From Candidatus Omnitrophota bacterium (GTDB lineage Bacteria; Omnitrophota; Gorgyraeia; Velamenicoccales; Velamenicoccaceae), in contig JAGVOQ010000030.1 of assembly GCA_020052645.1 (NCBI GenBank), positions 1 through 48,810 of the forward strand: a stretch of 48,810 nt of DNA, read 5' to 3'. Below are positions 16,083 to 33,749 of the stretch, piece after piece. The translations under genes and the position numbers were made by a program. Below the pieces are notes generated by a model. It worked only from the letters and a program-made list of their open reading frames with translations, was not told the origin of the DNA and did no database searches. Position 1 is the first letter of the stretch. Each line of letters starts with the position of its first letter.

Positions 16083-16092
16083 TTGGTTACTG

Positions 16093-16117: not shown

Positions 16118-16191
16118 AAATCACCCGGGTGCTCCTTATAAAGGGAGTTTATTGTAAGTCATTTTATTTATTTCAGTTAAAGGAGTTTTTG

Positions 16192-16632: not shown

Positions 16633-16689
16633 CGCATGAATCACCTAGCGGAAAAATTAAGGTATAAGAACGTTATCCCTTGTCTAAAC

Positions 16690-16736
16690 ACTTTAAAATT
16701 TTTCAACCAGCGCGCTCGGGGTGAAAATTTTAAAGT
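16690..16736. repeat. 13-bp perfect inverted repeat between mraZ and the PilZ gene
   Basis: actttaaaatttt (16690-16702) pairs perfectly with aaaattttaaagt (16724-16736), and a further caacc/ggggtg pairing is possible after a bulge. There is no T run after it. It could be an mRNA processing or attenuation structure, or another intergenic palindrome of the kind seen elsewhere in the window. Confidence 0.5.
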
Positions 16737-16801
16737 AGACTTCGGGATTAAATTTGCAAGGTAAAGAAACCATTAGAGGCAAATTTAAGGAGGGTTTTAC
16801 C

Positions 16802-17164: not shown

Positions 17165-17190
17165 TTGATATTGTCTTAGAGCCACGGAGG

Positions 17191-17210
17191 GGTTATAAAA
17201 AATTATAACC
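17191..17210. repeat. Short hairpin before rsmH
   Basis: ggttata (17191-17197) pairs with tataacc (17204-17210) around aaaaat, in the 105-base spacer between the PilZ gene and rsmH. No T run follows. Confidence 0.4.
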
Positions 17211-17269
17211 GGTGCGCTAAAGCTCAACAGGCATTGCCTCTTTTAGAAGAGAGGGAAAGGTTGCTTTTT

Positions 17270-18166
17270 ATGTCAGAGGTCAGGCATACGCCCGTTATGC
17301 TCGAGGAAACACTCGCGTATTTAAACTTAAAGAATGGGATGACCGTTGTTGATTGTACGTTGGGATTAGGGGGGCACGCGTTAAATATCTGCGAAAAAAT
17401 AGCTCCTCGCGGCAGGCTGATTGGCATTGATAAAGACGAAGAATCTCTCGCTGTTGCTAAAAAAAAATTAAAAAATTTTTCAAAGAATTGCGTTTTTGTG
17501 CATGATGATTTTCGTAATTTCGATAAGGTTTTAGACCAGTCGAATGCAAACGGAGCGGACGCGGTGTTGTTTGATCTGGGCGTTTCTTCATTTCAATTGG
17601 ATAATCCGGCTCGTGGTTTTAGCATTAAAAATGAAGGTCCTTTGGATATGCGCATGGATCGAAAGAGTTTTATTTCTGCCTATGATCTTTTGAATAATTT
17701 GACAGAAGAAGAGCTGTCTTCTATACTCTGGCGTTTTGGCCAGGAGAGATTTTCGCATCGCCTGGCTCATAGTTTTGTCGAAGCACGGGATAAGGCTCCG
17801 TTGTCCTCAACTAAACAGTTAGCGGAATTGGTTATGCGCGCCATGCCACCTAAGGCGCGTTTCCAGAGGATCCATCCGGCCACTCGGACTTTTCAGGCTT
17901 TAAGAATTGCCGTGAACAGAGAACTGGATGCGCTTGAGGAAGCTTTAAGGAAAAGCGCTCTTTATTTGAATAAAGGCGGCAGAATTTGCGTGATCTCATT
18001 CCATTCGCTTGAAGATAAGATTGTAAAAGAAAATTTTAAAGAATTGTTTAAGACGCAGAGGTTCCGTTTGGTTTTTAAGAAAATTTTAAGACCTTCTGAA
18101 GAAGAAATTCAGAATAACGTGCGCAGTCGCAGCGCTAAGATGCGGGTTATTGAAAGGGTTAAATGA
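17270..18166 (+). CDS. rsmH: 16S rRNA (cytosine(1402)-N4)-methyltransferase
   Basis: RsmH (MraW) methylates N4 of C1402 in the 16S decoding centre. It shows HTPVMLEE at the N terminus, the SAM site VVDCTLGLGGHA, FDLGVSSFQLD, the RGFS-type block, THPATR-like IHPATRTFQALR and ISFHSLEDKIVK. The 298 aa begin at the ATG at 17270, preceded by gagggaaagg. The frame opens earlier at a TTG but without conservation. ATGA overlap with ftsL. Confidence 0.96.
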   Translation: MSEVRHTPVMLEETLAYLNLKNGMTVVDCTLGLGGHALNICEKIAPRGRLIGIDKDEESLAVAKKKLKNFSKNCVFVHDDFRNFDKVLDQSNANGADAVLFDLGVSSFQLDNPARGFSIKNEGPLDMRMDRKSFISAYDLLNNLTEEELSSILWRFGQERFSHRLAHSFVEARDKAPLSSTKQLAELVMRAMPPKARFQRIHPATRTFQALRIAVNRELDALEEALRKSALYLNKGGRICVISFHSLEDKIVKENFKELFKTQRFRLVFKKILRPSEEEIQNNVRSRSAKMRVIERVK

Positions 18167-18540
18167 GAACATCGCGGTGTATTCTTTATACGGCATTAGT
18201 AACGGGGTTTTGTCTCCTGTATGTTTTTTTGCAGACTGAAGTTGTTAAGCTCGGGTATAGGATCACGGCCGCTCAGAAGACCCTCGAGACATGCCTGGAC
18301 CGTAAAGAAGCCCTTGCCTTCACGCTTGCGACCCTTGAATCACCCTTAAGTCTTGATAAGAACCTTCTTAAAGATAAACCTTATGAAATCGCCAAAGATT
18401 ATCGTCTTGTGATGCTGACGACGGGTACTTCTTCAAAACAGGCGAAGAGCAGCGCAACGGCTAAAGATTCGTTGTTCAAGCGTCTGGCATGGCAAAACCT
18501 TTTTGCTTCGCGGCAGGCTGAAGCGCGAACGATCAAGTAA
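18163..18540 (+). CDS. ftsL: FtsL-like division protein
   Basis: A 125-aa bitopic protein with a short cytoplasmic end, a hydrophobic segment at about residues 7-24 and a helical, coiled-coil-like stretch after it. The sequence is weakly conserved, as FtsL always is. Assignment rests on topology, size and position between rsmH and ftsI. FtsL partners FtsB and FtsQ to activate FtsWI. The start overlaps the rsmH stop (ATGA). The tail beyond residue 90 is rich in A, K and S and looks unstructured. Confidence 0.8.
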   Translation: MRTSRCILYTALVTGFCLLYVFLQTEVVKLGYRITAAQKTLETCLDRKEALAFTLATLESPLSLDKNLLKDKPYEIAKDYRLVMLTTGTSSKQAKSSATAKDSLFKRLAWQNLFASRQAEARTIK

Positions 18541-18612
18541 AGAATTAAAATGTGCGTTTTTATACGTACTTCTATAATTTAAATAGATTTGTTTTCCATC
18601 TTTAACCTTTAA

Positions 18613-20286
18613 GTGCAACCAAAACTCAAATCTTTAAGGCTCTGGGTAGTCCTCATCTTTTTTATAGGACTACTGTCTTTTTTTTTAGGGGAACTTGTCT
18701 TTTTTCAGTTATTCCGCTCGACTTTTCTTTCCAAGCTAGCTGCTAAGCAACATACTTATTATATAGAACTTCAGCCTCAACGGGGGACCATCTATGACAG
18801 GATGATGCGTCCTTTGGCGGTCAATGTTCCTTCATTTTCTCTTTACGTCGTTCCAGGGCAGATAAAAAACAAGAAGGAGACAGCCGAAAAATTAGTAAAT
18901 CTTTTTGGCCTGAATAAAGATGTCGTTTTAGAAAAGCTATCTCGTAATAAACAGTTTGTTTGGCTGGTGCGAAAATGCGATTGGCAGACGATGAAAGATG
19001 TTAAGGCGTTGAAAATAGAAGGAGTTCATTTCTTAAAAGAAAGTAAGCGTTCTTATGCTAATTCTAAATTGGCCAGTCAATTAATAGGATTTGCAGGGCT
19101 TGATAATGTGGGACTGGATGGGTTGGAAATGAAGTTTAATAAATATTTAAAAGGAGAAAGCGGCTGGACATTCGTTTTGAGGGATGCTAAAAGACGCGAT
19201 GTGGCGCTTTCGGATATTCTGCAGCCTCCGGTTGACGGATATTCTCTTGTGCTTACGATCGATCAGGTGGTTCAGTATATCGCCGAGCGTGAGATCGATA
19301 AGATTTTTGAAAAATACCATGCAAAGGGCGCCATGATTGTTGTGCTGGATATTAAAACAGGAGAAATCCTGGCACTTGCAAATCGTCCAACTTATGATTT
19401 GAATGATCCTTCTCAGTATCCAACGGATTCCCGTCGTAACCGCGTGATCACTGATTTTTTTGAACCCGGTTCTGTTTTTAAGATTGTGACGGCTTCCGCG
19501 GCGTTGAATGAAGGTAAGGTCAGTTTAGAAGATAAGTTTTTTTGTGAGAACGGCCAATACCGGGTGGCGAATCATACGCTTCACGATGTTCATCCTTATG
19601 GATGGCTGACATTTAAAGACGTTATTGGAGAGTCGAGCAATATCGGTACGACTAAAGTTGCTCAGAGGATAGGTGCGTCGGATGTCTATAATTATGGCAA
19701 GGCATTCGGCTTTGGAGATTTGACGCATGTGGATATGTCAGGAGAAGTCACGGGAGTTTTTAAGCCTGTATCGGCCTGGTCTAAGACGTCTATTGGCGCT
19801 GTGCCCATAGGGCAAGAGGTGTGCGTGACGACCCTTCAATTGGCTTCGGCGATCGCCGCTATCGGTAACGGAGGGGTCTACATGAAGCCTTATGTGGTGC
19901 ACGCTATTGTGGATAGAAGAGGGGAAGTGATCAAGGTTTTTGAACCTCAAGTGGTCAGGCGTGTTATTTCTGAAGATACTTCAAAAAAAATGCGCGAAGT
20001 TTTAGCCAATGTTGTTGTCAATGGCACGGGAAAATTAGCTCAGTCGAAAATATTTGCGATGGCGGGCAAGACCGGCACAGGCCAAAAGGTTGAATCGAAT
20101 GGCACGTATTCTCATTCAAAATTCATGGCTTCATTTATTGGATTTGCCCCTGCGGAAAATCCTGAGATCGCTATTGCCGTGATTGTGGATGAACCGCATC
20201 CGTACTATTATGGGGGTGTTGTTTCAGCCCCTGCTTTTAAGGCTGTGGCCGAAGATGTACTTAAGTACAGACAGTTGTCGTCTTAA
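18613..20286 (+). CDS. ftsI: Division-specific peptidoglycan transpeptidase (class B PBP, FtsI/PBP3-like)
   Basis: Monofunctional transpeptidase cross-linking septal peptidoglycan with FtsW. After an N-terminal membrane anchor (residues 8-30) come the PBP dimerisation region (PQRGTIYDR, LAVN) and the transpeptidase domain. Active-site motifs are S287-V-F-K, S341-S-N343 and K486-T-G. There are no PASTA repeats, and 557 aa is a normal length. A TAA directly precedes the GTG at 18613 in frame. That GTG is thus the only possible start that keeps the anchor, although no clear ribosome binding site is seen. Confidence 0.93.
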   Translation: MQPKLKSLRLWVVLIFFIGLLSFFLGELVFFQLFRSTFLSKLAAKQHTYYIELQPQRGTIYDRMMRPLAVNVPSFSLYVVPGQIKNKKETAEKLVNLFGLNKDVVLEKLSRNKQFVWLVRKCDWQTMKDVKALKIEGVHFLKESKRSYANSKLASQLIGFAGLDNVGLDGLEMKFNKYLKGESGWTFVLRDAKRRDVALSDILQPPVDGYSLVLTIDQVVQYIAEREIDKIFEKYHAKGAMIVVLDIKTGEILALANRPTYDLNDPSQYPTDSRRNRVITDFFEPGSVFKIVTASAALNEGKVSLEDKFFCENGQYRVANHTLHDVHPYGWLTFKDVIGESSNIGTTKVAQRIGASDVYNYGKAFGFGDLTHVDMSGEVTGVFKPVSAWSKTSIGAVPIGQEVCVTTLQLASAIAAIGNGGVYMKPYVVHAIVDRRGEVIKVFEPQVVRRVISEDTSKKMREVLANVVVNGTGKLAQSKIFAMAGKTGTGQKVESNGTYSHSKFMASFIGFAPAENPEIAIAVIVDEPHPYYYGGVVSAPAFKAVAEDVLKYRQLSS

Positions 20287-20292
20287 AGAAAA

Positions 20293-21771
20293 ATGAATAT
20301 TAAACAGATTATCAAAGACGTTTCGGTTTTAAAAATGAACGGTTCGTTGGAGTGCCTTGATATCTCTGGCATTACCGATGACTCAAGAAATGTCCGCCAG
20401 GGTGTTCTTTTTGTCGCGGTGGAGGGAGTGCTTCAAGACGGACATCAATTTATTAAGGCTGCTGTCCAGGGAAAAGCTGCGGCTATTATTTTATCGGATG
20501 AAAAATTTTTGTCGTTCATTCCTTCTCAAGTCCCCGTCCTTTTGGTGAAAGACGCAAAAAACGCGTTAATAAAAATTACGGATGTTTTTTTTAAAATGCC
20601 CACTCAACATATTCATTGCGTAGGTGTCACGGGAACGAACGGGAAAACGACAGTCTCATTTTTAATCAGGGATATTCTTCTGATCGCTGGGATTAAATGC
20701 GGCTTAATTGGCACTATCGGTTATAAAGTAGATGACGCGATGCAACCGTTAAGAAATACAACGCCGGGAATCGTGGAATTAAGGCGCTTGATGAGAGAAA
20801 TGATCGATGTTGGTGATCGTTATGTGGCGATGGAGGTGTCGAGCCACGCATTGGATCAAGACAGGGTGGCCGGTATTGATTTTCGATCTGCGATATTCAC
20901 AAATTTGACTCAGGATCATCTAGATTATCATAAGACAATGGAGGCCTATTTTCTAGCCAAGCAGAAGCTTTTCCTTGAACATACAAATAAAGACAGCTCT
21001 ATGATCATCAATCAGGATGATCCCTATGGCTTAAGGCTTTTTAATTCTTTAAAAGGCTCTAAATTGAGCTACGGTTTTTCTAATAAGTCCGATGTGAGCG
21101 TTGAGCGTTTCGAGCTCAAGAAAGAGGGGAGCCAAGCCATTCTTAAGACACCTAATGGCATTCTAGAAATTAAGACGAAATTAGTTGGCCGGCATAATCT
21201 TTATAATATTTTGGCTTCTGTGGCGTTTGGTATCTCTCAAGGTATCAAGCTTGATGTTATCGCAAAAAGTATTGAGCAAACCGTTTTGATTCCAGGCCGC
21301 TTGGATAGGATCGATAGCCGTAAAGGTTTTATGGTTTTTATCGATTATGCGCATACGGATGATGCGTTAAAAAATGTTCTTGAATCTTTGCGCGTCCTTG
21401 CCCATAATGGCAGAATCATTACTGTTTTTGGTTGTGGTGGAGACAGGGACAAGGGCAAACGGCCGAAGATGGGGCGCGTGGCATCGTCTTTATCTGATGT
21501 CTGTATCATTACTTCTGATAATCCACGCAGCGAAGATCCCCAGGAAATCATTAAACAGATTGTTGCCGGAATCTCTTCGGCGAATTTTGAAATTGAGGCG
21601 GACCGGGCAACGGCCATTCATAAGGCCATGCTCATGGCCGAAAGAGAAGATATCGTTTTAATAGCGGGCAAGGGACACGAAACTACTCAGATTGTCAAAG
21701 ATAAGACGTTCTCATTTAGCGATAAGGCCGTTGTTTTAGAGGTTTTAGGCGAAATGGAGAATAATGTTTAG
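20293..21771 (+). CDS. murE: UDP-N-acetylmuramoyl-L-alanyl-D-glutamate--2,6-diaminopimelate ligase
   Basis: MurE adds the third amino acid to the peptidoglycan stem peptide in the cytoplasm. It has an N-terminal UDP-binding domain (ITDDSRNVRQG), the ATP loop GVTGTNGKTT, EVSSHAL, and a C-terminal domain with VFGCGGDRDKGKR. The DNPRSEDP motif, whose arginine contacts meso-diaminopimelate, predicts DAP-type peptidoglycan instead of lysine-type. The 492 aa are complete. murF begins eight bases before its end. Confidence 0.96.
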   Translation: MNIKQIIKDVSVLKMNGSLECLDISGITDDSRNVRQGVLFVAVEGVLQDGHQFIKAAVQGKAAAIILSDEKFLSFIPSQVPVLLVKDAKNALIKITDVFFKMPTQHIHCVGVTGTNGKTTVSFLIRDILLIAGIKCGLIGTIGYKVDDAMQPLRNTTPGIVELRRLMREMIDVGDRYVAMEVSSHALDQDRVAGIDFRSAIFTNLTQDHLDYHKTMEAYFLAKQKLFLEHTNKDSSMIINQDDPYGLRLFNSLKGSKLSYGFSNKSDVSVERFELKKEGSQAILKTPNGILEIKTKLVGRHNLYNILASVAFGISQGIKLDVIAKSIEQTVLIPGRLDRIDSRKGFMVFIDYAHTDDALKNVLESLRVLAHNGRIITVFGCGGDRDKGKRPKMGRVASSLSDVCIITSDNPRSEDPQEIIKQIVAGISSANFEIEADRATAIHKAMLMAEREDIVLIAGKGHETTQIVKDKTFSFSDKAVVLEVLGEMENNV

Positions 21772-23134
21772 CTGTAAAGATCTTATAAAAGTCACTGACG
21801 GGGTTTTAGCCGAAGGAACCAAACAAAGGCGGTGTTCAGGGATTTCTATCGATACGCGAACAATAGCTGAAGGCCAGGCTTTTGTCGCTTTGACGGGAAA
21901 TAACTTTGACGGACATGATTTTATTTCTAGGGCTATTGAGCTTGGAGCGACGGTGATTATTTATGCCGATGCCGGAAAAGTCCAGGCTTTTGAAAAAAAT
22001 GTTACGTATATAAAAGTTAAAAATACGATACAGGCCTTGGGGGCTATCGCGCGTTTTCATCGGCAAAAGTTCGATATTCCCGTCATCGCTGTTACGGGCA
22101 GCAGCGGAAAAACAACGACGAAAGAGATGATTTCATGGGTACTGTCGTCAAGATTTAATGTATTGAAGAATAAGGGAACGCAAAATAATCTGATTGGCGT
22201 CCCTTTAACGCTTTTGCAGATTCATTCCAAGCATGATATATGTGTGGTTGAAATGGGCACGAATCGCATGGGAGAAATTAAACAATTGACTCAGATCGCA
22301 TGTCCTAACATAGGGGTCATTACGAATATCGGGCCGTCCCACCTGGAATTTTTAAAAGACCTTAAAGGTGTTTATAAAGAGAAAGTTGAATTGCTGCGTA
22401 ATCTCAGTATTCCCGGCATCGCGTTTTTAAATAAAGCGGATGTGATTTTAGGGAAGCTTATCCGTATCCGCTCGAGGTCTTTTTTCTTTTTCGGTATTAA
22501 CAAAGAATGCGATTTGAGGGCAACGGAAATAACTTATAAAACCAACGGCATTTCTTTTCTTTTAAATGGTGTACATCCTTTTGAGATTCGTCATTGCGCT
22601 CTTCATTCGGTTGCGAATTCTTTAAGCGCCATTGGATGCGGTTTTTTATTCGGCTTAGACGCGAATGTCATTAAGGAGCAGATTGCTTCTTTTGATTCGC
22701 CCGATATGAGGCTTAAAGAAGTGCATCTTAAGAAATGTATTATTTTTGACGATACCTATAATTCGAATCCACAGTCTTTAAAACAGGCTATTGACGTTTT
22801 GTGTCGTCAGGAAACTAAAGGCCGCAGGATCTTGGTTATGGGGGATATGCTTGAATTAGGCGAAAAATCAGAGGAGTTCCACATTTATTTCGGACGTTAT
22901 GTTTCAAAAAAATCTGTCGATATCCTTGTGACGATGGGTAAGTATTCTAAAAGTACGGCTGAGAGCGCTAGGAACAGCGGCATGAATACAGCTACGGTTC
23001 ATCATTTTGACGATAGCCATGCGGTGTTGGAGTTTTTGCATGCCTCTATCAAGGATGGGGACGTGCTTTTGGTCAAAGGGTCACGCTCGATGCGTATGGA
23101 ACGAATTGTTTCTTTTTTAAAAGAGAGAGGCTAG
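21764..23134 (+). CDS. murF: UDP-N-acetylmuramoyl-tripeptide--D-alanyl-D-alanine ligase
   Basis: MurF ligates D-Ala-D-Ala (made by Ddl, encoded at 30773) to the UDP-MurNAc-tripeptide. Visible motifs are ISIDTRTI near the N terminus, AVTGSSGKTTTKEM for ATP, VVEMGTNRMGEI, ITNIGPSHLEF and DDTYNSNPQS. The length of 456 aa is normal. It overlaps murE by eight bases and is followed six bases later by mraY. Confidence 0.96.
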   Translation: MFSCKDLIKVTDGVLAEGTKQRRCSGISIDTRTIAEGQAFVALTGNNFDGHDFISRAIELGATVIIYADAGKVQAFEKNVTYIKVKNTIQALGAIARFHRQKFDIPVIAVTGSSGKTTTKEMISWVLSSRFNVLKNKGTQNNLIGVPLTLLQIHSKHDICVVEMGTNRMGEIKQLTQIACPNIGVITNIGPSHLEFLKDLKGVYKEKVELLRNLSIPGIAFLNKADVILGKLIRIRSRSFFFFGINKECDLRATEITYKTNGISFLLNGVHPFEIRHCALHSVANSLSAIGCGFLFGLDANVIKEQIASFDSPDMRLKEVHLKKCIIFDDTYNSNPQSLKQAIDVLCRQETKGRRILVMGDMLELGEKSEEFHIYFGRYVSKKSVDILVTMGKYSKSTAESARNSGMNTATVHHFDDSHAVLEFLHASIKDGDVLLVKGSRSMRMERIVSFLKERG

Positions 23135-23140
23135 AAAGAC

Positions 23141-24232
23141 ATGCTTTATTACTTTTTATACCCTTTGAGAGATTTGGTCGCGGGTTTCAATATATTTAAA
23201 TACATCACTTTTCGTTCTGCCATGGCGGCGATCACGACATTTTTTATTTGTATTATTTTCGGACAGAAGGTTATCAATAAGCTTGGGGCTCTTAAGATCC
23301 GCGAAAATGTCAGGCAGAAAGATGAGGTTCGAGAGCTTTATGATCTTCATCATCACAAGCAGGGAACGCCTACGATGGGTGGATTGATGATGGTCTTTGC
23401 GATTTTTCTGTCTACGGTCCTTTGGGCGGATTTAACTAATAGGTATGTTTTGTGGACTCTTTTGGCCTTTTTGTGGCTGGCCATTGTTGGTTTTGCCGAT
23501 GATTATATTAAGTTGAAATTCAAGCGTTCAAAAGGCTTGAGCGCGAAAGCTAAGATTCTCGGTCAGTTAACGCTGGGGATTATCGTCGGTGTTTTTGTTT
23601 ACCTGAATCCGCATACGTCAACAGTCCTGGATGTTCCTTTCTTGAAGAATCTTACTATAGATTTGGGTGTGTTTTATATTCTTTTTGTCATGCTGGTCAT
23701 TGTCGGGACTTCCAATGCGGTTAACCTGACTGACGGGCTTGATGGATTGGCGACAGGTTGCCTTTTGATGTCTATTGTATCATTCGGTATTTTGACCTAT
23801 TTGTCAGGTCATGTGAAATTCAGCCAATATCTTTTTATCCCCTATATTGAAGGTGTCGGTGAGTTGACGGTTTTCTGTGCGGCGATGATGGGGGCCTGTT
23901 TGGGTTTTCTGTGGTTTAACTGTTATCCGGCGGCAGTATTCATGGGGGATGTGGGATCGCTCTCGATGGGTGGGGCTATTGGCCTTATCGCTGTATTTAT
24001 CAAAAAAGAACTTCTCCTTGTCATTGTTGGGGGCATATTTGTCGTTGAGGCGCTTTCTGTTATTTTGCAGGTCGCGTCTTTTAAATTACGCAAGAAACGA
24101 ATTTTTAAAATGGCCCCGCTACATCACCATTTCCAAATGTTGGGCTGGCCGGAATCAAAAATTATCGTGCGATTTTGGATTATTGCGATCATCCTGGCGC
24201 TTTTTACGCTCACAACACTTAAATTACGATGA
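23141..24232 (+). CDS. mraY: Phospho-N-acetylmuramoyl-pentapeptide-transferase
   Basis: MraY transfers phospho-MurNAc-pentapeptide to undecaprenyl phosphate, forming lipid I at the inner face of the membrane. It is a polytopic protein of about ten membrane segments. Cytoplasmic loop signatures are present: HHHKQGTPTMGG, FADDYIKLK, NLTDGLDGLA, FMGDVGSLSMGG and APLHHHFQ. The length is 363 aa. Its stop overlaps the murD start (ATGA). Confidence 0.97.
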   Translation: MLYYFLYPLRDLVAGFNIFKYITFRSAMAAITTFFICIIFGQKVINKLGALKIRENVRQKDEVRELYDLHHHKQGTPTMGGLMMVFAIFLSTVLWADLTNRYVLWTLLAFLWLAIVGFADDYIKLKFKRSKGLSAKAKILGQLTLGIIVGVFVYLNPHTSTVLDVPFLKNLTIDLGVFYILFVMLVIVGTSNAVNLTDGLDGLATGCLLMSIVSFGILTYLSGHVKFSQYLFIPYIEGVGELTVFCAAMMGACLGFLWFNCYPAAVFMGDVGSLSMGGAIGLIAVFIKKELLLVIVGGIFVVEALSVILQVASFKLRKKRIFKMAPLHHHFQMLGWPESKIIVRFWIIAIILALFTLTTLKLR

Positions 24233-25485
24233 CATCCTATAAAAATAAAAAAGTTACCGTTGTGGGCTTGGCTCGAAGCGGCTTGGCGGCCGCGCGACTT
24301 TTGAAAACCCTTGGCGCTTCAGTCCGCGTTACTGAAAAAAATCAGTCACCTGTTTTATTTGAAACCGCCGAAGTTTTAAAAAAGGAAGGCATTCAAGTTG
24401 AAGTGGGGCAGCACCGCCGTTCTTTTATTGATGGTTGCGATCTCATTGTCATCAGTCCTGGGGTTCGCGATGACGCTGAACCCTGCCTTTGGGCAAAAGA
24501 ATACGGCATTGAGATTATCAGTGAAATCGAGTTGGCTGTATCTGTGTGTTCGGCGCCCATTATCGCCATTACTGGGACCAATGGCAAGACAACGACAACG
24601 ACCCTGATCGGCGAGATTGTAAAAGCTGCCGGAAGGAAATGTTTTGTTTTAGGAAATATAGGCCAACCCTTTTCTCAATACGTCTCTTTCATTAAGCCTG
24701 AAGATTTTGTTTCTCTCGAAGTCAGTTCTTTTCAGCTTGAGGCTATTAAGCAATTCCATCCTAAAGTTGCCGTTATTCTTAATTTGACCCCGGATCATTT
24801 GGACCGTTATAAGGACATGGATCAGTATCTAGAGGCAAAAAAAAGGATATTTATGAATCAGGATGAAAACGACTGGTTGATCTTAAATTATCAGGATGAA
24901 GCCTTGGTAAGAATTGCTCCTGAAGCCAGATCCCGGGTTCTTTTTTTTAACAGGAGTGGCGCAAGCGGTGATTTTAATCCCAATCAATTGGCGGTTTTGG
25001 CTGTTGCCCGGGCGCTTCAGATCGACCGCCAAGTCGTTCTCGATGTTTTTAAAAATTTTAAAGGTGTTGAACATCGGATGGAATTTGTGCGCGAGATTAA
25101 CGGCGTCGAGTTTGTGAATGATTCTAAGGCCACGAACATCGATTCGACGATTTGGGCGTTGACAAATATTAAAAAGCCGGCAATCTTGATCGCCGGGGGA
25201 AGAGATAAGGGCAGCGATTTTGCCTCCGTTGCTTCCTTGATAAAAGAAAAGATTAGGCATGTCGTCCTTGTGGGGGAGGCGGCCCAGCGCATTGAGCAGG
25301 CTTGGCATGGCATTGTGCCCATGACCGTTGTTCAAACATTTCCTGAAGCTGTTCGGCTGGCGGCTCAAAAGGCGTCTTGTGGTGAGATGGTTTTATTTTC
25401 ACCTATGTGCAAAAGCTTTGACATGTTCACCGATTATGAGCATCGCGGCCGAACGTTCAAAGAACTCGTGAATCAACTAAGTTAG
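24229..25485 (+). CDS. murD: UDP-N-acetylmuramoylalanine--D-glutamate ligase
   Basis: MurD adds D-glutamate to UDP-MurNAc-L-alanine. It has an N-terminal Rossmann-like domain (VVGLARSGLAAARLL), ISPGV, the ATP loop ITGTNGKTTTTTL, EVSSFQL, NLTPDHLDRY, ND-S-KATN and AGGRDKGSDF. The 418 aa are slightly short but all motifs are kept. It overlaps mraY by four bases. A 72-base AT-rich spacer separates it from ftsW. Confidence 0.96.
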   Translation: MTSYKNKKVTVVGLARSGLAAARLLKTLGASVRVTEKNQSPVLFETAEVLKKEGIQVEVGQHRRSFIDGCDLIVISPGVRDDAEPCLWAKEYGIEIISEIELAVSVCSAPIIAITGTNGKTTTTTLIGEIVKAAGRKCFVLGNIGQPFSQYVSFIKPEDFVSLEVSSFQLEAIKQFHPKVAVILNLTPDHLDRYKDMDQYLEAKKRIFMNQDENDWLILNYQDEALVRIAPEARSRVLFFNRSGASGDFNPNQLAVLAVARALQIDRQVVLDVFKNFKGVEHRMEFVREINGVEFVNDSKATNIDSTIWALTNIKKPAILIAGGRDKGSDFASVASLIKEKIRHVVLVGEAAQRIEQAWHGIVPMTVVQTFPEAVRLAAQKASCGEMVLFSPMCKSFDMFTDYEHRGRTFKELVNQLS

Positions 25486-25499
25486 TGCGTTGCGAGTCT

Positions 25500-25545
25500 A
25501 ACAATTGTTCATTGTTCATTTTTCATTGTTAATTTTATTGTTTTT
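25500..25545. repeat. TTCATTGTT short-word repeat
   Basis: Variations on ttgttcattgttcattt follow one another in the murD-ftsW spacer. This is the only real gap in the murE-murG run. Neither a ribosome binding site nor a convincing promoter is visible in it. Confidence 0.4.
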
Positions 25546-25557
25546 GATCTTAAAACT

Positions 25558-26652
25558 ATGAGAAGCGCCAGAATTACAATTTTTATAACAATGCTGATCC
25601 TGATCGGGATCGGTGTTGTCATGATTTATAGCGCCTCCTCAATTCCGATGTGGCAACAGACAGGAGAAAGCGGCCGTTTGCTTAAAAAACAGGCCAGCTA
25701 TCTTTTGATGGGATTTGTTGCCATGTTTCTGAGTATGGTCGTCGATTATCAGAAGCTGCGCAAATATACTAAACCCATTTTTTTTATCGCTGTTATTCCC
25801 CTGGTCTTAGTTTTGGTCCCAGGTATTTCGCGTGAAGTCGGAGGTGCCAAGCGATGGCTGCACTTGTTTGGGCTGAATTATCAACCGTCCGAATTCGTTA
25901 AGATCGCGCTTATTATTTACATGGCTGATTTTATTGACCGAAAATATTCGTATTTAAAAGATTTTTGGCGTGGTTTTGTACCGCCGATGGTTATTTTAGG
26001 CCTTGTTACATTTCTGGTTTTGCTTCAGCCCGACTTAGGGACAGCTATTTCTTTTGTTTTTTTGGTGTTTATCATGCTTTTTATTTCAGGCGGGCGCCCA
26101 ATTCATTTAGGTTTAAGCATCTTAGCTGCTTTACCCATTGCTTATCTTCTTATTTTTCGCGTGGCGTATCGACGCGCCAGGATATTAGCTTTTTTAAATC
26201 CATGGATGGATCCCAAAGGGAGCGGTTTTCAGATTATCCAATCACAGATCGCCTTGGCTTCCGGCGGTTTATGGGGGGTGGGGTTGGGCCAGGGGCGACA
26301 GAAGCTTTTTTATCTTCCAGCGGCCCATACAGATTTTATTTTTTCGATTATCGGAGAAGAGTTGGGGCTTTTGGGCGCGGGAGTCGTTATCTTGCTCTTT
26401 ATTTTTCTTATATGGAATATGGCCAAGGTCGTCTATGCTGTGCGCGACCCATTTGGAAAGTTGATCTGCGCTGGGGTCGTTGCGTTGATCGGTTTTTCGA
26501 CCATTGTCAACATCGGTGTCTCGATGGGGTCTTTTCCCACCAAAGGGCTGCCGCTGCCTTTTATCAGCTATGGAGGTTCTTCGTTGATTTTTCATATGGT
26601 TGCTGTTGGTTTGTTGTTGAATGTTTCCAGGGCTGAGGAGGTCACGCTGTGA
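25558..26652 (+). CDS. ftsW: Septal peptidoglycan polymerase FtsW (SEDS family)
   Basis: FtsW is a polytopic SEDS glycosyltransferase polymerising lipid II at the septum with FtsI. The 364-aa protein has about ten membrane segments. SEDS signatures are YSASS near the N terminus, QPSEFVKIAL, LLQPDLGTAI, HTDFIFSIIGEELG with the essential aspartate region, and GLPLPFISYGGSSL. FtsW rather than RodA is decided by position in the dcw cluster; the second SEDS gene at 47590 sits with mreBCD-mrdA. Its end overlaps murG (GTGA). Confidence 0.95.
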   Translation: MRSARITIFITMLILIGIGVVMIYSASSIPMWQQTGESGRLLKKQASYLLMGFVAMFLSMVVDYQKLRKYTKPIFFIAVIPLVLVLVPGISREVGGAKRWLHLFGLNYQPSEFVKIALIIYMADFIDRKYSYLKDFWRGFVPPMVILGLVTFLVLLQPDLGTAISFVFLVFIMLFISGGRPIHLGLSILAALPIAYLLIFRVAYRRARILAFLNPWMDPKGSGFQIIQSQIALASGGLWGVGLGQGRQKLFYLPAAHTDFIFSIIGEELGLLGAGVVILLFIFLIWNMAKVVYAVRDPFGKLICAGVVALIGFSTIVNIGVSMGSFPTKGLPLPFISYGGSSLIFHMVAVGLLLNVSRAEEVTL

Positions 26653-27740
26653 GTCAACTGCGTTCAAAACGACTTCTGGTTGTGGCCCAAGGAAGCGGAG
26701 GGCATGTTTTTCCTGCCGTGGCTTTTTGTCAGGAATTTATTTTAAAAAATCCCGAAAGTGTTCTGATAACATTTGTCACGTCAGCGAACGCAAAGTTTGT
26801 CGCTTCTGATGGTCAAAAAGCGAATAAAATAATTCCTGAAGAATTTCATCCTGTTTATTTGTCTGCGTCCAGATCAGCCTTAGGTATTTTGAAACTGATT
26901 TTTAGCAGTTTTGGGACGATTATTCGTGAAAGGCCGGATATTGTTTTTGGATTTGGAGGATATTTTACCGTTCCATTTGTTTTTTGGGCAAAACTTTTTG
27001 GAAAAAAAACGATTCTGCACGAGCAGAACGTTGTTTTAGGCCGAGCAAATATGTTTTTAAGCGGCTGGGTGGATAAGATTATTATTTCTTTTGAAGAAAC
27101 CAGAATGTATTTAAAGAAAAATAATAAAAAGACGCAATGGGCCCGGTTTCCTTTGAAGGAAAACCTGCGGCGGATGCCTAAGAACGAGGCTCTTCAAGTA
27201 TTGGGTTTTAAGGAAGGTTTATTGACTGTTTTGGTGGTTGGCGGTAGTCAGGGGGCTCGGTGCATCAACGAAAGAATACCTGAGGCTTTAAAAGAAAATA
27301 AGAATTTAGATCAACTTCAGGTGATCCATTTGGCTGGGCACAATGATTTTAAAAGTGTAAAAGAGCGTTACAGGGCTTTGCCGTTGTGTTCAAAAGTCTT
27401 TGAATTTTTTGATGATATGCAGGTGCTTTATTCGGCGGCAGACCTCGTGATCGGGAGGTCCGGGGCCGGCTGTGTGGCTGAAATTTCTCATTTTGCATTG
27501 CCTTCTGTTTTGATCCCTTATCCTTACGCAGGGGCGCATCAGATTGAAAACGCGCGCGTCTTAGCAAAAAAAGGCGCAGCCCTTTTGTTGGAAGAAGATA
27601 AAATCACAGCACCGTTGCTCTCAGGCCTCTTAGATATTTTTATTGAAGACGATATGAGAAGGAAAACGATGTCGAAGATCTTAACAACCATGGAAGAAGA
27701 AGCGCAAAAAATTTCTTTAAGCGAGGCGGTGTTCCTATGA
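26649..27740 (+). CDS. murG: UDP-N-acetylglucosamine--N-acetylmuramyl-(pentapeptide) pyrophosphoryl-undecaprenol GlcNAc transferase
   Basis: MurG converts lipid I to lipid II on the cytoplasmic face. The 363-aa GT-B enzyme shows the first glycine loop as AQGSGGHVFPAVA (usually GGTGGH). It also shows LHEQN, VVGGSQGARCIN, GRSGAGCVAEI and the donor-binding PYPYAGAHQIENA. The GTG at 26649 overlaps the ftsW TGA, indicating coupled translation. Its TGA in turn overlaps the start of an exported peptidase gene. Confidence 0.95.
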   Translation: MSQLRSKRLLVVAQGSGGHVFPAVAFCQEFILKNPESVLITFVTSANAKFVASDGQKANKIIPEEFHPVYLSASRSALGILKLIFSSFGTIIRERPDIVFGFGGYFTVPFVFWAKLFGKKTILHEQNVVLGRANMFLSGWVDKIIISFEETRMYLKKNNKKTQWARFPLKENLRRMPKNEALQVLGFKEGLLTVLVVGGSQGARCINERIPEALKENKNLDQLQVIHLAGHNDFKSVKERYRALPLCSKVFEFFDDMQVLYSAADLVIGRSGAGCVAEISHFALPSVLIPYPYAGAHQIENARVLAKKGAALLLEEDKITAPLLSGLLDIFIEDDMRRKTMSKILTTMEEEAQKISLSEAVFL

Positions 27741-28537
27741 AAAAAGTTTTTAAGTTATTCTTGTGTTTATCTTTTTTGACGATTTTTTTCGGCTTTGGAG
27801 ATTTTTCTGAAAAAAAGAGCACCCATTTTATTATTTATTACAAAGATATCCCGGAAGATTTCTTAGATGATGTTTTGGAATATTCAGAGCGCTATTATGA
27901 TGAATTAACGGAGAAACTAGGGTTTAGGCGTTTTAATTATTGGACATGGGATAATCGGGCCAAAATTTATATCTTTGAGGATAAGGAGACTTATGAAAAA
28001 GAAATGAACCAGCCGGCTTGGGCAGGAGGTTCAGCTTCTTATGTCGACAAAACAATTTGGACATTTCCGCAGGAATCAGGATTTTTCGATACGCTTTTGC
28101 CTCATGAAATAGGACATATAGTTTTCAGGGAAGTTGTCGGCGCTCATCGCAATATTCCTCTTTGGCTGGAAGAAGGCGTTGCTCAGTACCTGGAACAGGC
28201 CAAGCGGATCGGCGCTGAAAAACATGTTTTAAGCGCCATGTCGGAGGGTGCCTTTATTCCTTTTAAAGAGTTGATGGAAATAAATGGTCTTACGTTAAGA
28301 TCGCGCGATGATGTTAAAGTTTATTATGCGGAAGCATCCAGCCTGGTTAATTATCTTATCCAAAAGTATGGCGTTGATTCTTTTAATAATTTTTGTAGTA
28401 AGCTTAAAGACGGAAAAACTTTTGACAACGCCATAAGTTACGCTTATTTTTACATTAGGAACTCTTCAGATTTAGGCGAGGCCTGGGAACAGTATTTGAA
28501 AGATAAACTAAAAATAAAAGATAAAATGGTTCTCTAA
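27737..28537 (+). CDS. Exported zinc metallopeptidase (gluzincin, peptidase MA-like)
   Basis: A 266-aa protein with a signal peptide (basic MKK, then a hydrophobic run to about residue 20) and no lipobox, so probably periplasmic. The zinc site is H123-E-I-G-H127 with the third ligand E146 in PLWLEEGVAQYLE, the arrangement of peptidase MA-like gluzincins. It overlaps murG (ATGA) and precedes murC by ten bases, so it is an integral member of the dcw operon. The substrate is unknown. A cell-wall or division-protein target is suggested by position only. It is not one of the standard dcw genes. Confidence 0.82.
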   Translation: MKKVFKLFLCLSFLTIFFGFGDFSEKKSTHFIIYYKDIPEDFLDDVLEYSERYYDELTEKLGFRRFNYWTWDNRAKIYIFEDKETYEKEMNQPAWAGGSASYVDKTIWTFPQESGFFDTLLPHEIGHIVFREVVGAHRNIPLWLEEGVAQYLEQAKRIGAEKHVLSAMSEGAFIPFKELMEINGLTLRSRDDVKVYYAEASSLVNYLIQKYGVDSFNNFCSKLKDGKTFDNAISYAYFYIRNSSDLGEAWEQYLKDKLKIKDKMVL

Positions 28538-28547
28538 GGTTGGTTAT

Positions 28548-29903
28548 ATGACGCAACATGTTCATTTTATAGGGATCGGCGGAATAGGTGTTAGCGGTGT
28601 GGCACAGCTGGCCTTAAAGCAGGGGCATCAGGTTTCCGGATCTGACTTGAAAGAGTCTTCGATCACGCGTCGTCTTGTCCACGAAGGCGCGCAGGTCTTT
28701 TTGGAGCACAGGTCAGAAAATATCAAAGGGGCAGATTTGGTGGTTTATTCATCCGCGATCAGCCCTAATAATCCGGAATTGGTTGCTGCGCGTGATTGCG
28801 GGATTCCTGTCCAACGTCGCGCTGAGTTTTTGAGCGTTTTAATGGCGAATAAAAAAGTGATCACCATTACAGGCGCCCATGGAAAAACAACAACGTCTTC
28901 TTTGGCGGCACACCTACTCATAAGTTCTGGGCTTCATCCAACCCTGGCGGTAGGAGGGATCTTGCGTGAAGATGGAGATAACGCCAAGCTGGGGGATAGT
29001 TCTTATTTTGTCGCCGAAGCCGATGAGAGTGACGGCACTTTTTTGTGTTACAGGCCCATGTATTCGATCATCACTAATATAGATCAGGAGCACATGGATT
29101 TTTATAAAACTACTGATAATCTTTTGGGATATTTTTCAAAATTTGTTTCTCAGACTGAAAAAAACGGATGCGTTTTCTATTGTTTTGAAGATGAAGCCTT
29201 AAAAGATATTATAAAGAAAAGCTCAGTCAGAAGCGTAAGCTTTGGTTTTTCTCCACAAGCGGATTTAGTTGCGGATAATATCCATTTGGATAAATGTCGC
29301 ATTAGCTTTTCTTGTTTTAAAAAGGGGGGCGCCTTAGGGGAGGTTGCGCTTGGGCTCGCGGGGAGGCATAATATTTTAAATGCGCTTTCGGTCATTGCCC
29401 TTGGCCAAGAGTTAGGTATTGATTTTAAGATGATCCAAAAGGCGCTCGCAAGCTTTAAGGGGGTTGAGCGCCGTTTTCAGATTAAATTCGAAAATAAAAA
29501 TTTTCTTGTTGTGGATGACTATGGCCATCATCCTACAGAAATTGCCGCGACGTTGGAAGCAGCCAAACTTTGCGGACGCCGAAGGCTTGTGGTTGTCTTT
29601 CAGCCTCATCGATTTTCGCGCACGCATCTATTGATGGATGCGCTTGCGCGGTCTTTGGAGGGCGCGGACGTATTGTTTGTAACGGATATTTATGCGGCCG
29701 GAGAAAAACCTATTGCAGGCGTTGGGGCAGAGCAGATCGTTGAGCGTGTGAAAATAAATTCGAGCATGACGGCTGAATATGTTCCTAAAGATCAAATTAT
29801 AGGAGAGCTTAAAAAAAATATTGTAGCTCAAGATCTTATCTTGTTTTTAGGCGCGGGGGACATTACGAAAATAAGTGATGAGTTCTCAAAAAGTTTTGAT
29901 TAA
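28548..29903 (+). CDS. murC: UDP-N-acetylmuramate--L-alanine ligase
   Basis: MurC begins stem-peptide synthesis by adding L-alanine to UDP-MurNAc. It has HFIGIGGIGVSGVA and GSDLKES at the N terminus, ITGAHGKTTT for ATP, EADESDGTFL, the NIDQEHMDFY block, GRHNILNALS and DDYGHHPTEI. The length is 451 aa. murB starts inside its last ten codons. Confidence 0.97.
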   Translation: MTQHVHFIGIGGIGVSGVAQLALKQGHQVSGSDLKESSITRRLVHEGAQVFLEHRSENIKGADLVVYSSAISPNNPELVAARDCGIPVQRRAEFLSVLMANKKVITITGAHGKTTTSSLAAHLLISSGLHPTLAVGGILREDGDNAKLGDSSYFVAEADESDGTFLCYRPMYSIITNIDQEHMDFYKTTDNLLGYFSKFVSQTEKNGCVFYCFEDEALKDIIKKSSVRSVSFGFSPQADLVADNIHLDKCRISFSCFKKGGALGEVALGLAGRHNILNALSVIALGQELGIDFKMIQKALASFKGVERRFQIKFENKNFLVVDDYGHHPTEIAATLEAAKLCGRRRLVVVFQPHRFSRTHLLMDALARSLEGADVLFVTDIYAAGEKPIAGVGAEQIVERVKINSSMTAEYVPKDQIIGELKKNIVAQDLILFLGAGDITKISDEFSKSFD

Positions 29904-30783
29904 AGGTTTGAAAAAGAACATTTCTTTAAAAAACCGCACGAGTTTTCGTATAGGCGGAAGAGCGGCCTATTGGTATGAGCCGAAAACAAGAAATGAGCTG
30001 AGTTGTTTTTTAAAAAAATCGCAATTTCTAAAGCCTTTTTTTGTGATAGGTGCCGGTAGTAATCTTTTGGTCAAAGAAGGTGTGATTAAAAAGACTTTTA
30101 TCCATCTGAGTGCGCAGGCTTTCAAAAAAATAACGATGAGGGGCGTATCTGTTGAGGTGGGTGCTGGCGTGCCTCTTAATCGGTTGATTTCGTTTCTTAT
30201 GCCTTTTGATTTAACGGGTTTCGAATTTTTGACAGGGATCCCCGGAACAGTGGGGGGCGCTCTTGTGATGAATGCCGGCGCAAAGAATGAGGCAGGAGAT
30301 AACCAGGTTTTAAAAGAAATCAGTGATATTGTTTCCTGGGTTGAGGTTTTGGATTTAAATGGACGTATTTTTAAATTAAAAAAGAAGGACATCATTTTTT
30401 CCTATAGGACCTCTTCATTGAAACCCTATGTTATTTTAAGGGCTGAGTTTCGGTTGAGGCGCGGGGAAAAAGGGTCGGCCCGAAAAAGGATCAAAGAGCT
30501 TTTTGAGGAAAGAAGGGCGCGTCAGGATTGGCGCTATGCGAGCGCAGGCAGCTTTTTTAAAAATCCAAAAAACGGACTGTCGGCAGGCCGGATGATTGAC
30601 TCTTGTCATCTTAAGGGGTTGAGATACAAAGGAGCGCAGGTAAGCGAAAGGCACGCTAATTTTATTCTTAATATTCGCGGTGCCAAGAGCCAGGATGTGA
30701 TACGTCTTATGGAAATTATTCAAAAAAAAGTGTATAATCGTTTCAAAATTAAATTGATACCGGAGGTTGAAATTGTCGCTTGA
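29878..30783 (+). CDS. murB: UDP-N-acetylenolpyruvoylglucosamine reductase
   Basis: MurB reduces UDP-GlcNAc-enolpyruvate to UDP-MurNAc using NADPH and FAD, and so depends on the RibF product. Signatures are NRTSFRIGG, GAGSNLLV, TGIPGTVGGALVMNAGA, SYRTSSL, and the AGSFFKNP block containing the catalytic serine. The absence of the extra loop and about 300 aa fit the shorter type II form. The start may be the GTG at 29875 or the ATG at 29878; both overlap murC by just under 30 bases. Confidence 0.94.
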   Translation: MSSQKVLIKGLKKNISLKNRTSFRIGGRAAYWYEPKTRNELSCFLKKSQFLKPFFVIGAGSNLLVKEGVIKKTFIHLSAQAFKKITMRGVSVEVGAGVPLNRLISFLMPFDLTGFEFLTGIPGTVGGALVMNAGAKNEAGDNQVLKEISDIVSWVEVLDLNGRIFKLKKKDIIFSYRTSSLKPYVILRAEFRLRRGEKGSARKRIKELFEERRARQDWRYASAGSFFKNPKNGLSAGRMIDSCHLKGLRYKGAQVSERHANFILNIRGAKSQDVIRLMEIIQKKVYNRFKIKLIPEVEIVA

Positions 30784-31702
30784 GGAAAAACGTATTGGGG
30801 TTTTGATGGGAGGGGCATCTTCTGAAAGAGATATTTCCTTAAAATCCGGCATGGCTGTGTTTGAAGCATTAAAGGCTGTGGGTTTAGATGCCGTTAGCCT
30901 TGAGGTTAAAAACGAAACAGAAGATGAGGTCAAGTCGCTTCTTTCAAATAGCCATGTGGACGCAGTTTTTATCGCTATGCACGGTGGTTTTGGTGAGGAT
31001 GGGCGTCTTCAGCATATTTTAGAAAAAATCCACATGCCGTTTACAGGCCCAAAAGAGAAATCGAGCCGGTTGGCTATGGATAAGCTTGTTTCGCGAAGGC
31101 TTTTTGAAAAATCCGGACTTCTGGTTCCAGCATATGTTTGTTTAAAAAAACAAGATTCTCTAAAAATAATTGATCGCCTTCATTTTCCTCTAGTCGTGAA
31201 GCCGACGTCTCAGGGTTCGAGCATAGGGATTTCTTTTATAGATGCTTTTGAAAAGGTCGAAGAGGCTGTGGCTTTAGCTTTTCAGTACGATGATACAGTT
31301 TTGATCGAGGAATTTATTGAAGGAAGGGAGATTACGGTTTCAGTTTTGGATGGTGAGCCGCTTCCAATTGTTGAGATCATCCCGAAGAAAAAATTTTTTG
31401 ATTTTCAGGCAAAATATGAAAAAGGAATGACAGATTATGTTGTCCCTGCTGATTTAAGTGAGGCAATAGCCCGAGCGTCGCAAAAAGACGCGGTTGTGGC
31501 GTATCGCACGTTGGATTGCCGTCATTTGAGCCGCGTTGATATGATATTAAAAGAAGATCGCTTGCCTTATGTTTTAGAAGTTAATACAATTCCTGGGTTT
31601 ACGGCCACGAGCCTTTTCCCAAAAGCCGCGCGGGCCGCAGGCGTAAGTTTTCAAGAATTGTGCACAAAATTGTTAGAGTTTGCCGTGAGGGACAATGGCT
31701 AA
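30773..31702 (+). CDS. ddl: D-alanine--D-alanine ligase
   Basis: Ddl makes the D-Ala-D-Ala used by MurF. This 309-aa ATP-grasp enzyme shows LMGGASSERDISLKSG, HGGFGEDG, PFTGPKEKSS, VVKPTSQGSSIGIS, EFIEGREITV and LEVNTIPGFT. The TTG at 30773 is chosen because ggagg at 30762-30766 lies six bases ahead; an earlier in-frame TTG touches the ribosome binding site. It overlaps murB by 11 bases. Confidence 0.94.
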   Translation: MSLEEKRIGVLMGGASSERDISLKSGMAVFEALKAVGLDAVSLEVKNETEDEVKSLLSNSHVDAVFIAMHGGFGEDGRLQHILEKIHMPFTGPKEKSSRLAMDKLVSRRLFEKSGLLVPAYVCLKKQDSLKIIDRLHFPLVVKPTSQGSSIGISFIDAFEKVEEAVALAFQYDDTVLIEEFIEGREITVSVLDGEPLPIVEIIPKKKFFDFQAKYEKGMTDYVVPADLSEAIARASQKDAVVAYRTLDCRHLSRVDMILKEDRLPYVLEVNTIPGFTATSLFPKAARAAGVSFQELCTKLLEFAVRDNG

Positions 31703-32489
31703 AAATAAAAAAAATAAACAAAATAATCAGTTTTTTCTTCTTGTCGTTTTGCCTCTTTTGGCTATTTTTGTATCTTCTTTGGCCATTTATAAGGGGTTGC
31801 AAAATTACATCACGTCATCGCACTATTTTAAGATCAGAGACGTTGTGATCGATGGCATCGCCGATGCACGCTATGTTGAGTGCATGAGGGAAGAAATTTT
31901 AGGGTCAAATATTTTTGAATTGGACGCGGAAAAATTAGCAGAAAGAATTAAAAAAAGATTTCCGACTTTTTACAACATTCGCGTGACGAGGGTTTTGCCC
32001 TCAAAGCTTGAGATTTTAGCTCGGGAACGCATTCCAGTGGCTATTGTCAGAAAAGAAGTTTATTATCTTTTCGATGCTCAAGGTGTCGCGATCGCGAGTT
32101 TTCCGCTGAACGCTCTTTTAAATTATCCTTCCATCGTAGGCTTAGATAGCAGGTTGCCGAAGATTCAAGTTGGGGTTTCGTATGAGGTCAGTGCTTTAAA
32201 GATTCCGCTTCGGTTGGCGCTTTTGCTGCGCGTCAGGATCCCCGCGCTTAAAATCGTCAAGATAGATGCCACGGATCTTGATAATTTGGTTTTTTATTTG
32301 AACGGCGATATCCAGGTCAAGATAGGCAATCGTGATTTTGAAGAACGATTGAATCTTTTGCCTGTAATCTTAAAAAGCCTAGGACCTGAAGTTTCGAATG
32401 TTTTGTATATTGACCTTCGGCATAAGGAGCCGGTGATTTCTTTTAAAAAGAACGATTCTTTACGATCGCGCAATCTCGGTGGCACTTGA
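31695..32489 (+). CDS. ftsQ: Cell division protein FtsQ/DivIB
   Basis: FtsQ is a bitopic divisome scaffold that links early and late division proteins through FtsB/FtsL. The 264-aa protein has a basic cytoplasmic end, one membrane segment at about residues 13-32, a POTRA domain (FKIRDVVIDGI... LGSNIFELDAEKL... PTFYNIRVTRVLPSKLEI split by loops) and the beta domain. The sequence is divergent but topology, POTRA pattern and position before ftsA agree. It overlaps ddl by eight bases. Confidence 0.88.
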   Translation: MAKNKKNKQNNQFFLLVVLPLLAIFVSSLAIYKGLQNYITSSHYFKIRDVVIDGIADARYVECMREEILGSNIFELDAEKLAERIKKRFPTFYNIRVTRVLPSKLEILARERIPVAIVRKEVYYLFDAQGVAIASFPLNALLNYPSIVGLDSRLPKIQVGVSYEVSALKIPLRLALLLRVRIPALKIVKIDATDLDNLVFYLNGDIQVKIGNRDFEERLNLLPVILKSLGPEVSNVLYIDLRHKEPVISFKKNDSLRSRNLGGT

Positions 32490-32508
32490 TTCTAAAAAAA
32501 GGATTCTT

Positions 32509-33744
32509 ATGAAAAAAATTACTAAAAAATTTTTTTATAGTCTTGATATCGGTTCTAAAAAAATGACCTTGGCTGCAGCAGGAATTCAGCGAAACGGCGA
32601 ATTCGGCCACATTTTTATAGAGACAGGGCGTTCCGAAGGTATTTTTAAAGGTGTTGTTAATGACTTGGCGGCGTTGAGCGATGCGATGCTGCAGCTTTTT
32701 AAAAAAATGGAAGCTAAGTGCAACGAGAGAGCGGCACAGGTGGCCTTGAGCATCAATGGTCACTACATCAACGCGCGGCATAGCAGCGCGGCGATCGCTT
32801 TGGCGGAGCGGGGAACTCGTTCGATCACGCGCCGCGATATCGAAAAGCTTGGGCTTCAGGCAAGGACCTTAGGGCTTGAATTGAATGAATATCTCTTGCA
32901 TGAATATCCTCAGCGTTATGCCATTGACAGGCAAAATACGACGCTCGTCCCTCTAGGGTTGCACGGAAGAAAATTCGAGATGGATCTTCTCTTGATCTGC
33001 GCGGATATGGGATATTTGCAAAATATCACCAAGGCGGTGGAGCAGATCGGCTTAGACGTTGTTCAACTGGTCTTTTCTGGCGTCGCGGCCAGCGAAGCTG
33101 TTTTGTCTGAAAGCGAAAAAGAGGAAGGGGTCGTTTTAGTGGATATTGGTGATTCTCTTACAAATGTCCTTATTTTTAAAGACGGCGTTCCTCGTTGTTT
33201 TCACGGTTTTTCTTTTGGCGGCCGCAACCTTACTGAGATTATCTCTAATTATTTTAAGATTCCTTATGAGCTGGCCGATGGGATCAAAGAATCATCCATG
33301 GAGATCGACAGCGAGCTTCTTGAAACAGAAGAAGTCATGATTAAAACGGAAGAAGTTTATCGTCCTATAAAAAAGAAAGAACTTTTGTCGATCACAGGGC
33401 CTGAGATAGATAAATTTATCGCGACTCTACGCAGTGTTATTTTTAACTGTGGGTTGGATGGTATACCAGGGATGTCAGTGGTGGCCACAGGGGGTTTAAG
33501 TTCACTGGCGGGGTTGTTGGAGAAAATGGAACGGGATTTAGGCTTAACCGTAAAATTAGGATTGACGAAAAACCTCCAGGATGCCTCGGCTTCTCAGGGG
33601 CCCGCTTATGCCGCGGCCATAGGTTTGTTGTGCCGGCAAAGGGATCAGTATCGTAAGAATGACCTGTTGAATACATCCAGTGGAAAAAATAAAGTATCCA
33701 AAGTTGTTGATTATCTTGTTAACCTCTATCAGGATTATTTTTAA
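32509..33744 (+). CDS. ftsA: Cell division protein FtsA
   Basis: FtsA is the actin-fold membrane tether of the Z ring. The 411-aa protein has FYSLDIGSKKMTLAAAG (phosphate 1), the 1C subdomain (RAAQVALSINGHYI... TRRDIEKL), VVLVDIGDSLTNV (phosphate 2) and VVATGGLSSLAG (adenosine). It ends in an amphipathic-looking helix (VVDYLVNLYQDYF) suitable for membrane binding. The ATG at 32509 is preceded by aaagga; the frame opens earlier at a GTG. FtsA normally sits immediately before ftsZ, but no ftsZ follows here. Confidence 0.9.
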   Translation: MKKITKKFFYSLDIGSKKMTLAAAGIQRNGEFGHIFIETGRSEGIFKGVVNDLAALSDAMLQLFKKMEAKCNERAAQVALSINGHYINARHSSAAIALAERGTRSITRRDIEKLGLQARTLGLELNEYLLHEYPQRYAIDRQNTTLVPLGLHGRKFEMDLLLICADMGYLQNITKAVEQIGLDVVQLVFSGVAASEAVLSESEKEEGVVLVDIGDSLTNVLIFKDGVPRCFHGFSFGGRNLTEIISNYFKIPYELADGIKESSMEIDSELLETEEVMIKTEEVYRPIKKKELLSITGPEIDKFIATLRSVIFNCGLDGIPGMSVVATGGLSSLAGLLEKMERDLGLTVKLGLTKNLQDASASQGPAYAAAIGLLCRQRDQYRKNDLLNTSSGKNKVSKVVDYLVNLYQDYF

Positions 33745-33749
33745 CCGAA

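Follow-up and report, generated by a model that had tools for sequence, protein, structure and literature searches.

Few bacterial gene neighbourhoods are as well conserved as the dcw cluster, so the inheritance of an additional gene within it suggests a peculiarity in the way a lineage builds its wall or divides. The 48,810-nucleotide stretch of DNA analyzed here (the window; contig JAGVOQ010000030.1) carries a dcw cluster in which a gene for a putative exported zinc peptidase lies between murG and murC. Does this gene belong to the cluster, and if so, what might a peptidase do there? The source genome (1.7 Mb in 55 contigs) is assigned to the Omnitrophota, a phylum of very small and mostly uncultured cells, and shares its family with Ca. 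Velamenicoccus archaeovorus LiM.

Features of the locus are listed in Table 1. The murG stop at 27740 produces a 4-base ATGA overlap with the peptidase start, and murC begins ten bases past the peptidase stop, in agreement with the overlap and gap given by an earlier sequence-only reading of this DNA. Its further claim that the gene is translated together with murG and murC is supported as probable translational coupling within dcw. Cluster genes were named from Pfam matches for mraZ, rsmH, ftsI, ftsW, murG, murC, murB, ftsQ and ftsA, from sequence and position for mraY, murD and ddl, and from position alone for the two genes at the murE and murF positions.

Table 1. Location of the peptidase gene, its predicted functional sites, neighbouring genes and the paralogue locus
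Feature	Coordinates	Strand	Basis
Exported Peptidase_MA_2 gluzincin gene (predicted)	27737..28537	+	ATG start, 266 aa; PF13485, AlphaFold2, Foldseek
Sec signal peptide (predicted), ~residues 1-21	27737..27799	+	Hydropathy of this protein and its orthologues; AxA-like cleavage site in the orthologue alignment
HEIGH zinc-binding motif (predicted), H123-E124-x-x-H127	28103..28117	+	Invariant in 118 aligned homologues and 43 further linked copies
Candidate third zinc ligand E146, within PLWLEEGVA	28172..28174	+	Invariant in 118/118
Candidate transition-state Tyr, Y197	28325..28327	+	Invariant in 118/118; role by analogy with M1
murG (lipid II glucosyltransferase)	26649..27740	+	Pfam Glyco_tran_28_C 5.4e-36, Glyco_transf_28 6.1e-20
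murC	28548..29903	+	Mur_ligase domains
dcw cluster: mraZ, rsmH (mraW), ftsI, murE/murF-position genes, mraY, murD, ftsW, murG, peptidase, murC, murB, ddl, ftsQ, ftsA	16054..33744	+	
T2SS-operon paralogue locus	L173:260-8052 = G000 contig C14, 4759-12551; peptidase L173:4154-5074		

The product matched PF13485 (Peptidase_MA_2; E 3.8e-16) over profile positions 22-200 of 201, and its score of 59.9 bits passed the Pfam gathering cut-off of 32.4. Its one hydrophobic segment is N-terminal, with a Kyte-Doolittle maximum of 2.33 at residue 4 and no value above 0.9 elsewhere, so the remainder is predicted to be soluble. A hydrophobic N-terminus of the same type was present in 61 of the 62 orthologues scored, consistent with the signal peptide proposed earlier. 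AxA-like cleavage sites were found in aligned orthologues (LCA-ED in L004, AHA-YD in L007), and the peptidase N-terminus contains no lipobox. The protein would thus be a Sec substrate exported to the periplasm, with a mature form computed at ~245 aa, 28.9 kDa and pI 5.1.

The gluzincin site described from the sequence alone, HEIGH plus a downstream glutamate, was complete throughout the alignment, with H123, E124, H127, E146 and Y197 all kept in 118 of 118 homologues. H127 and E146 are separated by 18 residues (HExxH-x18-E), the spacing found in 79 of the 118 homologues, with gaps of 17-20 in the others. Three residues past E146, A149 was shared by 85/85 linked copies and 97% of free copies, and an E-x-x-A pattern fit 117 of the 118. 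Because the motif had served as the search seed for 78 linked loci derived from GTDB, its conservation in those loci is partly built in, and copies obtained by profile were therefore examined separately. HExxH and the glutamate were kept in all 43 of these additional linked copies, sampled by profile and not by motif; 42 had the full HExxH-x-E-x-x-A pattern, the sole deviation being Ser for Ala in L219. A mutated HExxH in relatives, named beforehand as an observation that would speak against the proposal, was never encountered in the copies seen. H123, H127 and E146 would bind zinc and E124 would act as the general base. It is exceedingly improbable that the protein is a catalytically silent scaffold or inhibitor, as HExxH and the third ligand are invariant in all copies seen and we found no point in support of that role. 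Median identity to the window was 43% for the peptidase compared with 36% for MurG, 28% for FtsQ and 33% for FtsA from the same clusters, a comparison favored by the selection of loci for peptidase similarity.

We compared the predicted structure with known peptidases, as the sequence-only reading had proposed. The AlphaFold2 model, built from a 19-row alignment, had a mean pLDDT of 85.9 and a pTM of 0.81. Its top Foldseek matches in the PDB were peptidase domains of M9 collagenases (E 5.3e-8, TMq 0.58-0.67), followed by M1 enzymes. A sequence search of solved structures returned only a chance match to a phage portal protein.

The order murG-peptidase-murC was found in the window, in all of the loci L004-L019 and also in L025 and L027. 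Nearly all of the best 80 loci in GTDB genomes had the peptidase next to murG and/or murC; the exceptions were a short stretch with no other dcw gene (L131) and a copy in a type II secretion (T2SS) locus (L151). From an even sample of the phylum (193 genomes, of which 136 belong to the window's class by count of tables and 57 to other classes), the peptidase directly preceded murC in at least 59 of the 136, and among the matches listed it lay beside murC in 0 of the 57. Dozens of genera carry it in the dcw slot. In Ca. V. archaeovorus the orthologue lies on the minus strand of NZ_CP019384, at about 1251508-1252278. The median spacing was -4, an ATGA-type overlap, both from murG to the peptidase and from the peptidase to murC (75 loci), although the nearest start was taken in each locus, which biases these values toward coupling. 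Even in family f6, whose dcw cluster is fragmented, the peptidase gene remains next to murG, in the order prfB-like-murG-pep. Relatives without the peptidase have murG and murC adjacent, with no replacement gene between them.

Conservation rules out a chance or annotation artefact. PF13485 was absent from all 14 control genomes, and judged by presence across bacteria, the peptidase is not a standard dcw member, as had been recognized from the sequence alone. The expected gene order was conserved in relatives, but it is confined to part of one class and has been lost repeatedly. Occurrence elsewhere was not patchy in the way that would have weakened the original proposal, since most of the clade resides in the dcw slot and related copies sit mostly in other fixed contexts. 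By these comparisons of sequence and gene order, the gene is a real, conserved, lineage-specific member of dcw whose predicted active site is intact, and it does not represent a new kind of enzyme.

Several other features of these clusters were observed. Two records named "Planctomycetales bacterium" (L113, L145), probably in error, contain the peptidase within a dcw cluster of the Omnitrophota type. In many peptidase-bearing clusters murB was not matched between murC and ddl, which are ~40-90 bases apart (L087, L094-L096, L099, L101, L104, L106-L108 and others). Long murC frames of ~750-1115 codons were present in several genomes (G179, G163, G124, G150, G148, G145, G100, G121, G144, G076, G038, G050 and G016), suggesting that murC is fused there to an adjacent gene, for example ddl or murB. 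Verrucomicrobium and Chlamydia are reported to have murC-murB and murC-ddl fusions.

On a MurC+FtsW tree (FastTree, a fast method), most linked loci fell in one 82-row clade with a support of 99. Presence and absence of the peptidase required 14 state changes over the whole tree, a count that alone does not separate gain from loss; the most plausible history is a single early gain followed by roughly a dozen losses, with many of these in family f4. Family f12 has the same slot and is distant on this tree, with long branches in its placement. A tree that kept the dcw peptidases together had a higher likelihood (p-AU 0.609), so a single origin was not rejected, and because the f12 peptidases join the other dcw copies without penalty, a single capture is possible. 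A Peptidase_MA_2 gluzincin would then have joined dcw early in the history of a large clade within one Omnitrophota class and been inherited from there.

The losses bear on function. Six close relatives without the slot (G134, G143, G158, G176, G181 and G192) have no PF13485 protein, so the activity is dispensable there, and compensation by other PF13485 copies is not general. Because the slot was lost repeatedly, the enzyme is not universally required. Across 31 f4 genomes (19 with the gene and 12 without), neither YkuD (L,D-transpeptidase) nor M23 endopeptidase visibly co-varied with it; counts showed no visible difference between the two groups, and thus no link to these wall remodelling enzymes was seen.

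Related peptidases occupy other operons. The source genome has one Peptidase_MA_2 paralogue, on contig C14. In this genome and in several Omnitrophota classes, sister peptidases lie between gspF and gspG in the operon gspE-gspF-pep-gspG-I-J-K; the same slot was found in L175, L180, L182, L186, L188, L189 and others. Members of a third clade (L177, L178, L192) occupy a conserved operon with genes for an F1-type, alpha-like ATPase, for a fused ATP synthase b/delta subunit and for a GGDEF response regulator. The dcw, T2SS and F1-ATPase-like contexts formed separate groups on the peptidase tree. In L177 and L178 the peptidase also adjoins an exported ~230 aa protein and a very large ORF. We found no description of this paralogue pattern across dcw, T2SS and ATPase operons in the open-access literature searched, and the T2SS placement of the closest paralogues, including one in the source genome, is new here.

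Related copies in unrelated operons, and a gene that roughly a dozen lineages can do without, could be explained by a general protease for periplasmic quality control or nutrition that rides the dcw operon for constant expression. We consider this unlikely, as the slot next to murG has been retained across great divergence, even with dcw split, and the three contexts are separate tree groups that show no swapping. Velamenicoccia are proposed epibiontic predators, and a secreted predation or scavenging enzyme, sent onward by the T2SS, would fit the collagenase-like fold, the sister copies in T2SS operons and the predatory habit of the related Ca. V. archaeovorus (PMC10066038). That role is very unlikely for a protein reduced to one domain and lacking any module for binding or recruitment, whose neighbours are wall synthesis genes and not adhesion or secretion genes, and whose losses are scattered inside one family.

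We give about an even chance to the reading that the gene encodes a putative lineage-specific periplasmic metalloendopeptidase, co-produced with the enzymes of lipid II synthesis, that acts on a protein involved in wall synthesis or division. The features behind this reading are the predicted signal peptide and zinc site, the murG overlap, the conserved slot with its later losses, and the T2SS sister group; the many independent losses and the six PF13485-free relatives count against it. Position in the operon suggests co-expression and does not imply a shared pathway. The M1 substrate motif GxMEN occurred in 0 of the 118 homologues, which argues against an M1-type aminopeptidase and hence for an endopeptidase that would cleave a protein at peptide bonds within its chain. 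The target would most likely be a periplasmic component of wall synthesis or division, which the enzyme may trim or turn over; the T2SS paralogue may act likewise on the secretion machine.

Alternatively, the enzyme might be a peptidoglycan peptidase that cuts stem peptides or cross-links, either for new strands (dcw) or for passage of the secretin through the wall (T2SS), since both of the fixed operon settings must handle the sacculus, one through wall synthesis and the other through a machine that spans the envelope. To our knowledge, however, wall endopeptidases belong to other families (M23, M15, M14, NlpC/P60). The nearest folds all cleave L-peptide bonds of proteins, the mature peptidase is acidic, and neither YkuD nor M23 visibly co-varied with the gene in family f4. 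In addition, the periplasmic gluzincin domain of VgrG2b has no peptidoglycan hydrolase activity and was negative on both sacculi and muropeptides (PMC6899460). A cross-link-cutting role is thus quite unlikely, and the fold, the VgrG2b precedent and the T2SS-operon paralogue favor a protein target.

No ftsZ follows ftsA in the window (32479-34023), and when 193 Omnitrophota genomes were searched with Pfam Tubulin and E. coli FtsZ queries, no match was convincing, the sole signal being a weak one in G034 (E 0.0018). The window encodes FtsA, FtsQ, FtsI, FtsW and MreB as well as the lipid II genes, and many dcw loci also contain ftsA. An elongation cluster of the mreB-mreC-PBP2-rodA type lies at 43515-48687 of the window, ~10 kb downstream of dcw. 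Few dedicated factors of FtsZ-less, FtsA-containing division or wall systems are known. Omnitrophica have been listed among bacteria lacking FtsZ (PMC8178401), while the opposite has been claimed for at least one Omnitrophota genome (PMC5147048; PMC5945725). We treat the absence of FtsZ as context, outside the main finding. More tentatively, exported gluzincins may be fixed parts of several Omnitrophota envelope machines (the wall and division cluster, the T2SS and the F1-ATPase-like operon), each copy a dedicated periplasmic maturation protease and the dcw copy a lineage-specific factor of the FtsZ-less, FtsA-containing apparatus. A large group of Omnitrophota has in any case kept an extra exported peptidase gene behind murG over long evolutionary time. 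Searches of the open-access literature on Peptidase_MA_2, gluzincins with peptidoglycan, and dcw with metallopeptidases found no description of this gene.

Among known systems, the collagenases ColG, ColH and ColT (M9) share the fold of the peptidase domain (TMq up to 0.67) at 14-18% identity. A149 corresponds to ColG Ala558, three residues past the third ligand, an alanine that forms a "basement" under the zinc in collagenase (PMC3711286). However, the third ligand lies 18-21 residues after the second histidine in the group studied here and 28-30 residues downstream in M9 (PMC3711286). The activator or helper domain and the collagen recruitment domains are missing from the 266-aa single-domain peptidase, and no M9 Pfam model matched it. 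The HExxH-x18-E spacing of most copies is shared with the M1 aminopeptidases LTA4H and ERAP1 (PMC3405069), which were lower-ranked fold matches, whereas the Pfam M1 score of 13.8 bits is under the 27.7 cut-off. Given M1 ligand spacing without GxMEN, we file the enzyme only as a predicted Peptidase_MA_2 gluzincin, M9-like but not a member of M9. PF13485 (clan MA), the profile it matches, models a loosely described superfamily; in the open-access literature searched, Peptidase_MA_2 was named in a single paper, on a Treponema genome, and no dcw role was found. Flagellinolysin (NCBIfam NF033876) is also an M9-like gluzincin and forms part of a surface machine (PMC5595980); its profile gave a weak match in the catalytic part (32.1 bits against a cut-off of 205 bits), but the peptidase is not a flagellin. 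The C-terminal metallopeptidase of VgrG2b is a gluzincin that works in the periplasm and interferes with wall and septum: it disturbs septation and pulled down MltC, PBP5 and PBP6a (PMC6899460). VgrG2b is, however, a DUF4157-type antibacterial T6SS effector with an immunity gene, and the comparison does not extend to sequence. Within the Omnitrophota, the T2SS-operon peptidase forms the sister group of the dcw copy and has the same domain, motifs, export signal and a fixed slot of its own. Unlike the dcw copy, it occurs in several classes and often has an insert ahead of the Y197 region, and it provides a second context for finding what this enzyme group cuts.
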